35,908 nucleotides of DNA from Acidobacteriaceae bacterium (GTDB lineage Bacteria; Acidobacteriota; Terriglobia; Terriglobales; Acidobacteriaceae). The stretch lies in contig PKVW01000057.1 in the NCBI GenBank assembly GCA_003131585.1, forward strand, positions 47,505 through 83,412. The letters are read 5' to 3'. Every line of letters begins with the position of its first letter. The stretch's first letter is position 1. The translations under genes were made by a program, and so were the position numbers. Of the stretch, positions 4,182 to 6,182 are shown in pieces. Below the pieces are notes generated by a model. That model had not been told where the DNA came from and searched no databases. It saw nothing but the letters and a program-made list of their open reading frames with translations.

Positions 4182-4724
4182 ATGAGTGACGAGCTGCAAG
4201 AACTGCAGGAGAATGCCGAACATGCGCACCACAATCCCAGCCTGGCGCCAGTATCGCTGACGATGGCGGTGCTGGCAGTATGCGTGGCGGTGGTGTCGCT
4301 GCTGGGACACCGGGCGCACACCGAGGAAGTGGTGTTGCAGGCCAAGGCGTCCGATCAATGGGAGTATTACCAGGCCAAGAATATTCGTCAGCACGAGGAC
4401 GAACTGTTCGCCGATCTGGCCACGGTGGTGGGCAGCAAAGACGCTGGCGAGATGGTCAAATTCCATGAAAAGTCTGCGCTGGAAGCGGAGCGTTACAAAC
4501 ACGAGAAGGGTGAGATCCAGGATGAGGCGCGCAAGTTGGAGGGCGAGGTCGCGATGGAAAGAAGCCGTGCCGACCGGTATGACCTGGCCGAGGTGTTCCT
4601 CGAGATTGGGCTGGTGATTACGTCCATCACGCTGCTTTCCGGGCGGCGAATCTTCTGGCACCTGGGGATTGTGCTGAGCGTGGTAGGAGCGATCGTGGCG
4701 GTTTCGGGGGCGATCATACACTGA
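4182..4724 (+). CDS. DUF4337 domain membrane protein
   Basis: A 180-residue protein with one N-terminal membrane span (about residues 24-44, VSLTMAVLAVCVAVVSLLGH), a charged, mostly helical periplasmic or cytoplasmic middle (about 48-140) with many Glu/Lys, and two closely spaced C-terminal spans (about 139-178). The middle includes the QAKASDQWEYYQAKNIRQH stretch typical of DUF4337. Function is unknown for the family. The ATG at 4182 is preceded by GGAGG. The 150-base gap after yjbQ shows no gene I can support. Confidence 0.85.
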   Translation: MSDELQELQENAEHAHHNPSLAPVSLTMAVLAVCVAVVSLLGHRAHTEEVVLQAKASDQWEYYQAKNIRQHEDELFADLATVVGSKDAGEMVKFHEKSALEAERYKHEKGEIQDEARKLEGEVAMERSRADRYDLAEVFLEIGLVITSITLLSGRRIFWHLGIVLSVVGAIVAVSGAIIH

Positions 4725-4770
4725 GCGCAGAGTCGCGGCTAAAGAGGAACAAAGTGCCTAAGAAATCTGA

Positions 4771-4808
4771 TTTTGGGTGGGGCAGCGCTTCCAGCGCTGC
4801 GTTAAAGA
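4771..4808 (+). repeat. Dispersed hairpin repeat, short copy
   Basis: The stretch begins TTTTGGGTGGGGCA and contains GCAGCGCT-TCC-AGCGCTGC, a perfect 8-base stem with a 3-base loop (4782-4800). It resembles the first half of the longer repeats at 12591-12673 and 17036-17121: the lead-in TTTTGGG and the paired stem are kept while the stem bases differ in a compensated way. The 200-base gap between 4725 and 4927 otherwise holds only the direct repeat at 4835-4860. Confidence 0.55.
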
Positions 4809-4834
4809 TGTTATTTTCAGACCGGTTAAGGGTT

Positions 4835-4860
4835 GTCAGTGAGTGTAATGGCGATATTTC
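4835..4860 (+). repeat. Direct repeat flanking the peroxiredoxin gene, copy 1
   Basis: A 26-base element with core TGAGTGTAATGGCGAT that matches the element at 5493-5518 at 22 of 26 positions in the same orientation. The two copies bracket the TGA-containing peroxiredoxin gene. A shorter inverted match lies at 6863-6880. Confidence 0.5.
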
Positions 4861-4927
4861 AACCGTTGCGCTTGGACGAACCCTATCTCCACAATGCCTC
4901 GCCGTAAATGCCTACTAGAATAGTGCC

Positions 4928-5479
4928 ATGGCAAAAGTTCCTGTCGCTGGGGAAATCGCGAGGGGCTTCGAGTTGCTGGACTCGACACGTGCGCCAAGGC
5001 GGTTGTCCGAGTTGGTCTCCCAGGAGGGGCGCCTGGTTCTGCTCTTCTATCGCGGGAATTGGTGACCGTTTTGCCTCCGCCAGTTGGCGGATTATCGCGA
5101 ACACTATCCGGAAATCAGGTCGGCGGGCGCGAGCCTAGTGGCGGTTTCTGTGGATTCGTGCGAATCATCGGAGGCCTTGCGAACTCAGCTCTCATTGCCG
5201 TTTCCGATTTTGTGCGATACGGAACGACGCGTTGTCAAGGACTGGGACATCTACAACTCGCGAGAAAGAGGCGGCATCGCCAAACCGGCCGTCTTCGTGA
5301 TTGATCCCAACCAGGTAGTCCGTTCCGCTTCGGTGGACTCGGTCGCGACGCGCGTTCCAGCCGTCGAGATTGTCCACTTGCTACAAAGTGCTGCCAATGC
5401 GCAGCCGATTCGACGGAGAGTTCACATCCCCATGTTGTCGGAGTGGATCAGGGCGATTCGGAATCACTTTCAAGGTTAG
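4928..5479 (+). CDS. Peroxiredoxin-like (AhpC/TSA) protein, candidate selenoprotein with in-frame TGA
   Basis: Read straight through from ATG 4928 to the stop at 5479, this is one 183-residue thioredoxin-fold peroxiredoxin-like protein interrupted by a single TGA at 5063-5065 (codon 46). The sequence around it is LVLLFYRGNW-(TGA)-PFCLRQLADYR. The family motif is RGxWCPFC, so the TGA replaces exactly the first, peroxidatic Cys of the C-X2-C pair, and the second Cys (residue 49) is present. The downstream half is fully conserved (LVAVSVDSCESSEALRTQ, LPFPILCDTERRVVKDW, KPAVFVIDPNQVVRSASVDS), with no other stop or frameshift. A hairpin follows the TGA directly. I read codon 46 as selenocysteine: a thiol peroxidase/oxidoreductase with a U-X2-C centre. 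The alternative is a one-base nonsense mutation from TGC or TGT. No selA/B/C/D is in this window. The ATG is the only possible start, because an in-frame TAG lies just upstream. Confidence 0.78.
5066..5102 (+). promoter_or_regulatory. Bacterial SECIS-like hairpin next to the TGA codon
   Basis: In the RNA just after UGA, TCCGCC-AGTT-GGCGGA (5076-5091) forms a perfect 6-bp upper stem with a 4-base loop. Below it, after a small internal loop, GC 5073-5074 pairs with GC 5097-5098 and GTTT 5068-5071 with GAAC 5099-5102 (one G-U). The loop starts 16 bases after the UGA and has a G in its second position followed by U. This agrees with the known bacterial SECIS layout, a stem-loop immediately 3' of UGA with G/U in the apical loop, though it sits at the short end of the allowed spacing. 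Confidence 0.6.
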
Positions 5480-5492
5480 GCGGAATGAATTC

Positions 5493-5518
5493 GTCAATGA
5501 GTGCAATGGCGATGTTGC
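5493..5518 (+). repeat. Direct repeat flanking the peroxiredoxin gene, copy 2
   Basis: A 26-base element with core TGAGTGCAATGGCGAT, 13 bases after the peroxiredoxin stop, in the same orientation as 4835-4860. The remaining gap to 5657 holds the ribosome site of the next gene (AAAGGAG at about 5643-5649) and nothing else I recognise. Confidence 0.5.
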
Positions 5519-5657
5519 GATGACAATCGCCAGTCGCATAGTTTCCGGTTTGTCCAAGAGACGCCCCTGACTCCAGATGAAGATCATTTCGCGACGTGGC
5601 GAACAGCCGAGATTGGTGTAGACTGAGTGCCGTTTTTATTCAGAAAGGAGATTCTCA

Positions 5658-6182
5658 ATGAAGAGCAGCAGGATTTTCGCTGGTGTGTCGGTGGCTCTCC
5701 TCAACGTCGCCCTATGCACTGTCGCCGTTGGCCAGGACAGCGCAACCGCACAGGAGGTCGTCGCCAAGGTGAGGGAAGCTGCCAGCACCCTAGCGAAGAC
5801 GCGTGACTTGGCACAGTTTAACGAGAAGCAGGGTCCGTGGGTGTGGAAAGACACTTATATCTTCATCCAGGACTGCGACAAGAAGGTCATGGCGGCTCAC
5901 CCGATAAAGCCGGAGATGATAGGCCAAGACATCTCGTCCGTCAAGGATGCAAAAACGGGAAAAAGCATCTACCCGGACTCAGTAGCTTACTGCAAGATGG
6001 TTCGGGATTCGCCTTCTGGCGTGTGGGGTGACTATTGGTGGCCGAAGCCTGGCGAGAAGGAGCCGTCACGCAAGATCACCTATCACCTGAGCGCTAAAGG
6101 AACCCCGTACATCGTGAACGCTGGAATCTACAGCGACACGGCAACCGTCAAGGAACTGTCAAAGATGAGCAGCAAGAAGTAA
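5658..6182 (+). CDS. Secreted single-Cache-domain protein
   Basis: A 174-residue exported protein. Residues 1-25 form a signal peptide (basic start, hydrophobic core, cleavage likely near AVGQDS). The rest resembles an sCache_2-type ligand-binding domain: DTYIFIQDCDKKVMAAHPIK, MIGQDISSVKDAKTGKSIY, and GVWGDYWWPKPGEKEPSRKI. Unlike chemoreceptors or histidine kinases, it has no membrane span or signalling domain after the Cache fold. It therefore probably acts as a free periplasmic binding protein or as the sensory subunit of a separate system. The ligand is unknown. AAGGAG sits 9 bases before the ATG. Neighbours do not reveal a partner. Confidence 0.82.
   Translation: MKSSRIFAGVSVALLNVALCTVAVGQDSATAQEVVAKVREAASTLAKTRDLAQFNEKQGPWVWKDTYIFIQDCDKKVMAAHPIKPEMIGQDISSVKDAKTGKSIYPDSVAYCKMVRDSPSGVWGDYWWPKPGEKEPSRKITYHLSAKGTPYIVNAGIYSDTATVKELSKMSSKK

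Follow-up and report, generated by a model that had tools for sequence, protein, structure and literature searches.

Whether a TGA triplet inside an otherwise open reading frame is a stop codon or is read as selenocysteine (Sec), and what kind of enzyme results if it is read, are the questions raised by this locus. The frame lies in a stretch of 35,908 nucleotides, referred to here as the window, on contig C23 of the source genome (G000; 3.93 Mb, 75 contigs, 96% complete). Taken together, the Sec machinery of this genome and the constraint on the sequence strongly suggest that 4928–5479 is a real selenoprotein gene, with Sec inserted in a UxxC peroxiredoxin (Prx)-like protein. A probability of about 0.93 is given to this reading.

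The reading frame and its product

The earlier note described one frame from ATG 4928 to the stop at 5479, interrupted once, by a TGA at codon 46, and this is confirmed; the context of the TGA is FYRGNW-U-PFC. The ATG at 4928 is the only one before the TGA. The open frame begins just three codons upstream, therefore this start is well bounded. The read-through protein matches Pfam AhpC-TSA (PF00578) over residues 8–133, with an E value of 2.4e-28 and a score of 99 bits, where the cut-off is 26; the frame is thus of the AhpC/TSA fold. The score for AhpC-TSA_2 (PF13911) is 22.2 bits, below its curated cut-off of 27, and Rfam gives nothing up to E 1 within 4700–5700. The AlphaFold model, made with a 42-row alignment, has a mean pLDDT of 92.2. 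An open reading frame starting at an internal TTG had also been predicted and is present in the table 11 listing (Table 1). The selenoenzyme is probably under-annotated, since a standard gene caller would report here only the 131 aa piece that starts at TTG, and the complete window protein scores below the cut-off of every NCBIfam model.

Table 1. Positions in the window of the predicted selenoprotein gene and associated features
Feature	Position	Strand	Basis or remark
Predicted selenoprotein gene; 183 aa Prx-like/thioredoxin-fold protein, motif RGNW-U46-P-F-C49	4928..5479	+	Frame, Pfam match, AlphaFold
In-frame TGA, codon 46, predicted to be read as Sec; first UxxC residue	5063..5065	+	TGA at aligned codon in relatives
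Cys49 codon; second UxxC residue	5072..5074	+	Aligns with peroxidatic Cys of peroxiredoxins; Cys in 37/37
Pro120 codon	5285..5287	+	Invariant; position of catalytic Arg in true peroxiredoxins
C-terminal helix, residues 170–182, outside the Pfam match and within the RAIRN-like tail of the subfamily	5435..5473	+	
Truncated open reading frame, TTG start, 131 aa; possible standard gene-caller output	5084..5479	+	Table 11 listing
bSECIS-like hairpin TCCGCC-AGTT-GGCGGA	5076..5091	+	Loop 5082–5085; 6 bp stem
578 bp segment 95% identical to L029/L046 (G053, other genus of the family)	4916..5493	+	Apparent horizontal-transfer unit
Left copy of 24 nt direct repeat flanking the gene	4835..4858	+	Dispersed repeat of the genome
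Right copy of 24 nt direct repeat	5493..5516	+	Begins where the shared segment ends

Conservation of the TGA codon

Matches at E ≤ 1e-20 were found in 18 of 150 relatives; every one of them contains one in-frame TGA, and its position in the alignment is always the same codon. When 399 genomes of the class were searched with a profile, 28 genomes matched at E ≤ 1e-38 with TGA in each matched frame, two of them with an additional stop in that frame. The subfamily set used here is made up of the 18 relatives, 18 new class genomes, and one locus from the phylum sample (L127), giving 37 loci in 37 genomes. All 37 have TGA at this codon, and the stretches extracted contain no further stop. Chance does not account for this, since the same codon is involved in every locus. 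In a tree of the sequences, the 36 rows other than the divergent L188 form a supported clade (99/95). L128 is placed between L188 and the other 36, so that strict monophyly does not hold for the full set of 37.

Across the phylum, the use of Sec in the Prx-like fold seems to be common. A sample of 396 genomes from the phylum gave 27 matches at E ≤ 1e-30, in 26 genomes; 25 of these have TGA at the site and two have TGC (L136 and L150), and the remaining stops sit at frame ends. Of the 24 more distant matches, 22 carry the TGA and two are Cys. These 22 UxxC Prx-like proteins (L128–L149 and L151, without L136) have the hairpin in another register. The 80 loci fetched from named genomes comprise 76 CxxC, 3 TxxC, and 1 UxxC (L046), two rows being read by eye; since the peptide pattern searched for had Cys at this position, Cys forms are favoured. 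Three Sec/Cys changes are seen on the tree, in a sample drawn with Sec-family queries.

The dN/dS ratio downstream of the TGA has a median of 0.41 and a maximum of 0.91 (436 pairs, 0.2<dS<2), and upstream a median of 0.33 (357 pairs). Between the window copy and L029 it is 0.25 downstream, with dN 0.026 and dS 0.106, and 0.08 upstream. Such values, below 1 yet not very low, make only a moderate argument for constraint. A pseudogene in decay, carrying a nonsense mutation, or a mistake in sequencing or assembly at 5063–5065 would present an assembled frame interrupted by TGA as seen here, but is extremely improbable given the same TGA without other stops in 37 genomes, the low dN relative to dS downstream of it in the comparison with L029, and the position of the stop at a redox residue that is Cys in 76 of the 80 fetched relatives.

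Selenocysteine machinery and other predicted selenoproteins of the genome

The source genome encodes SelB (367.7 bits, above cut-off), SelA (529.6 bits across both pieces), SelD (375.6 bits), and a tRNA-Sec with anticodon TCA. Rfam gave three candidates for tRNA-Sec above its threshold, and ARAGORN confirms this one; the other two, L019 and L020, are tRNA-Gly and tRNA-Ser. On contig C6 (5872–6736; L003 and L018), the tRNA-Sec lies downstream, on the same strand, at no more than about 360 nt from the matched part of an AhpC-type Cys peroxiredoxin gene. A selB gene is present in 122 of the 150 relatives, including 16 of the 18 gene-holders among them. It was not found in the other two of the 18 tested, G099 (82% complete) and G101 (73% complete); this test covered 18 of the 37 gene-holding genomes. 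Co-occurrence with selB is uninformative because selB is so frequent among the relatives.

Two further selenoproteins are predicted in G000. One is an FdhA-like frame (C37:47939–48706; L223) with TGA in RV-U-HGPTV, open for 231 aa before it and 608 aa after it, which scores under the Fdh-alpha family cut-off. The other is an AhpC-like peroxiredoxin (C49:26048–26446; L007) of the TxxU type, with TGA at the peroxidatic position in FTGG-U-TKQM. Downstream of the TGA in L223 is a hairpin with AAGTTT in its loop region, which is similar to the AGUU found in the window gene.

The bSECIS-like hairpin

Published criteria for the bSECIS are a loop of 3–9 nt with a G in the first two positions, a stem of 4–16 bp, a spacing of 16–37 nt, and an MFE ≤ -7.5 (PMC13188914). 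The hairpin 3' of the TGA agrees with all of these, having a 6 bp stem, a 4 nt loop with G second, a 16 nt spacer before the loop, which is the lower limit of the model, and an energy of -10.2 kcal/mol. Pairing starts at the 11th base beyond the TGA, within the 16 bases that the earlier note had given.

The loop AGTT is identical in 37/37 subfamily loci. Across 36 distinct rows the stem positions pair in 97.7% of cells, with changes on both sides in three of the six pairs; pairing is poor in the divergent L188. The covariation score of 0.185, against 0.099 for shuffled alignments, was matched by none of 500 shuffles, and the number of pairs changed on both sides by 1 of 500. When the structure is slid by 1–3 columns, at most 67% of cells are paired. 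The slide by +1 column also gives three pairs with changes on both sides, but only 43.5% of cells are then paired.

Constraint is also seen at the codon level. When rows with the same amino acid are compared (36 rows, without L188), codon identity over codons +4 to +8, counted from the UGA, is 0.76, 0.94, 1.00, 1.00, and 0.94, where 0.24 to 0.58 is expected. In the same rows, identity is also high for the Arg codon at -4 (0.74 versus 0.34 expected) and mildly raised at a few others such as -8, -7, +11, and +38, most being near expectation. Leu53 is TTG in 36/36 rows, compared with 130 of 585 other Leu codons. At the equivalent codons of the 76 Cys homologues, identity is about that expected.

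A hairpin of -3 kcal/mol or lower is present in the 16 nt slot in 37/37 subfamily loci, but in only 10 of the 76 rows with Cys and 2 of the 21 distant Sec rows, the contrast with the Cys homologues being partly confounded because base composition differs (median G+C 0.62 in the subfamily and 0.43 in the Cys rows). Of the 17 Cys rows with a G+C of at least 0.55, 9 fold a weak hairpin there, with energies between -3.2 and -6.7, against a subfamily median of -10.2. When each gene is compared with its own synonymous shuffles, 29 of the 37 fall in the most stable 5% and 8 do not. The more distant Sec homologues have other hairpins, a few bases further downstream.

The Sec insertion claimed in the earlier note is thus supported by the checks that it proposed of the homologous codon, of selA, selB, selC, and selD, and of a bacterial SECIS: the TGA is conserved without scattered stops, SelA, SelB, SelD, and tRNA-Sec are present, and the bSECIS-like element shows both covariation and constraint on its codons. 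In the proposed mechanism, SelB with Sec-tRNA(Sec) would be recruited by the hairpin at 5076–5091 and would decode the UGA at 5063–5065 as Sec. A code change or suppression, with UGA read as Trp or Cys or being leaky, would likewise keep the frame open. This is very improbable, however, in a genome with SelB, SelA, SelD, and tRNA-Sec, with a conserved hairpin at SECIS distance, and where the upstream DUF4337 gene (4182–4724) terminates in TGA and the gene itself encodes W45 by TGG and C49 by TGC.

Flanking sequences and probable horizontal acquisition

The flanks of the 578 bp segment shared with G053 are unrelated on both sides, within compared stretches of 3.5 and 10.5 kb. The G053 copy (L029) is identical over 3,546 bp to L046, from Acidobacteriaceae bacterium isolate GL140_6_metabat_77, and there the gene comes after a tRNA-Asn gene. 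A second UxxC Prx-like selenoprotein paralogue (L151; C37:12175–12684) is present in G053 beside the copy with the shared segment.

The window protein has 95% identity to that of G053 and 56–60% to those of four gene-holding congeners. For FtsK, identity to G053 is 78%, and full-length identity to congeners is 91% (G014), 87% (G025), and 84% (G016); G009 has 87% and 83% in two pieces and G032 has 91% over 250 residues. There is no match to the selenoprotein gene in G014 at 1e-20. In the tree, the window copy joins that of G053 and then copies of families f7 and f6 (97/97). A single clade for the five congeneric copies is rejected (dlnL 131.6, AU p 1.7e-49), the group tested being the genus, set after a first tree had been viewed.

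These comparisons suggest that the window copy was probably acquired horizontally as a single gene, and it would have entered the genome with its own SECIS included. The gene-limited 95% identity might instead reflect rearranged flanks or a chimeric contig, either of which could yield a bounded match, and both source genomes are draft assemblies, of 75 and about 160 contigs. This is distinctly unlikely when gene-holding congeners are so much less similar in the window protein than in FtsK (84–91%), G053 has the opposite relationship, and the single congeneric clade is rejected.

The 24 nt direct repeat that flanks the gene has 14 sites in G000, allowing up to 2 mismatches in a 19 nt core, where the reversed-pattern control has none. 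The repeat, GTCAATGAGTGTAATGGCGATRTT, is in several copies then followed by TCGCCA, a short palindrome that is REP-like, and copies are sometimes paired, about 0.55–0.72 kb apart. That these dispersed repeats are linked to acquisition of the gene is speculation.

No conserved operon was found: with the gene itself and antisense frames set aside, no neighbour family is common to more than 5 of 34 loci, neighbouring open reading frames having been called crudely by length and gene names taken from reading of the sequence. Neighbours are nevertheless common to some smaller groups of loci, most of which belong to a single family or genus; L191, L198, and L218, for instance, all have a PurF-like gene nearby. 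In such groups inheritance is therefore locally vertical. For carriage by phages or plasmids, one exact SECIS pattern had no matches in viral contigs, and all matches in 124 plasmid and 4 phage records are under 60% identity.

The active site and likely function

The active site of peroxiredoxins is PxxxTxxC, in which the peroxidatic Cys is last and to which the Pro, the Thr or Ser, and a catalytic Arg also belong. The earlier note had placed the TGA exactly at the peroxidatic cysteine. In five alignments to solved peroxiredoxins, however, residue 46 falls on the Ser/Thr of this motif, while the peroxidatic Cys is matched by C49 and the catalytic Arg by P120. Five TxxC/TxxU paralogues in G000 have Thr or Ser at position 46 and Arg at position 120 in all cases, and Pro at position 42 in four of the five. 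On these alignments, the TGA is at a different position of the motif from that proposed; the statement that the second Cys is kept stands, with C49 present in 37/37.

Arg42, Trp45, Cys49, and Pro120 are invariant in the 37 loci, as is UxxC. The canonical motif PxxxT(S)xxC/U is absent from all 37, which have Arg42 and Sec46 instead of Pro and Thr, and the catalytic Arg is likewise absent, with Pro120 in its place. Pro is also found at position 120 in 20 of 24 more distant rows, and may be comparable to the cis-Pro of thioredoxin. In the AlphaFold model, residue 46 immediately precedes the helix 47–58.

A canonical peroxiredoxin is unlikely, since Pro, Thr, and Arg are all replaced and only the Cys at the peroxidatic position remains. 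The product is more plausibly a thioredoxin-like UxxC selenol/thiol oxidoreductase, a fairly likely reading. U46 would attack a disulfide, a peroxide, or another oxidised substrate, C49 would resolve the U46 intermediate by forming a selenenylsulfide with it, which would then be reduced by a thiol donor. That Sec is inserted but the enzyme is a bona fide peroxiredoxin is rather unlikely. The Pfam match is to AhpC-TSA, true peroxiredoxins rank first in the fold search (3hjp, TM 0.76 by query), and selenols are good at reducing peroxides. Because of the ranking in the fold search, peroxidase activity through U46 or C49 is conceivable. Against this, U46 is located on the Thr/Ser of the motif, with Arg42 and Pro120 for the Pro and Arg throughout the subfamily, and G000 encodes another protein, of the TxxU type, in which the Sec does occupy the peroxidatic position.

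With a thioredoxin-like oxidoreductase as the preferred product, a wider proposal can be made, although it is doubtful: that this is a Sec-obligate thioredoxin-like branch in Acidobacteriota with a function that Cys cannot supply, the SECIS-bearing gene of about 0.6 kb moving among Sec-decoding lineages, perhaps via the flanking 24 nt repeats. The gene would be expected to function only in Sec-decoding hosts, and its compact transfer is therefore a test of how selenoproteins spread. The subfamily also offers a test of Sec irreplaceability in one enzyme, and its near-fixed AGUU hairpin provides a set of natural SECIS variants with which recognition by SelB could be studied beyond the customary model organisms.

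Comparison with known selenoproteins

Prx-like selenoproteins have long been catalogued, and appear as UxxC in two of PMC1794560, PMC2398784, and PMC13188914. The Prx-like thiol:disulfide oxidoreductase selenoproteins have the PF00578 domain with UxxC or UxxU, and include 'Prx-like 1' of the GOS survey, according to PMC13188914 and PMC2398784. In PMC13188914 the Sec peroxiredoxins are given as PxxxTxxU, and the Prx-like UxxC proteins are listed apart from these. For the phylum, a 2006 survey records three selenoprotein families and four selenoproteins in Acidobacteria, and a 2025 test set contains one Acidobacteriota genome with three known selenoprotein genes. A literature search, with most subscription papers outside its coverage, found no paper describing the present subfamily.

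The TxxU peroxiredoxin selenoproteins share the PF00578 fold family with the window protein, and G000 has a copy of its own. In these the Sec is peroxidatic, with a Thr three residues earlier and the Arg kept, whereas the window protein has U at the Thr position and Pro for the Arg. All 18 members of set A1 match the SelL-related redox protein model NF040769 at E ≤ 1e-5, but the window protein scores 39.2 bits against a curated cut-off of 120 and is not a member by this cut-off. The nearest Cys homologues among the fetched loci are the Cys-type RGNWCPxC proteins of Hymenobacter and others, with no more than about 42% identity over partial length. These have Cys in place of Sec and the codon constraint after the motif is absent.

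The closest likeness is to the Prx-like thiol:disulfide oxidoreductase selenoproteins, which have the same PF00578 domain and a UxxC with the Sec first in the motif. As judged from sequence, the window gene is a new subfamily of this known group, of which WP_010940744.1 is a published reference, the assignment being by domain and motif and the tree made from the loci collected here. What is new is that the subfamily is Sec-only in the sample and that the window copy looks horizontally acquired. The window clade is further set apart from the known members by its C-terminal RAIRN-like tail and its near-fixed AGUU hairpin.
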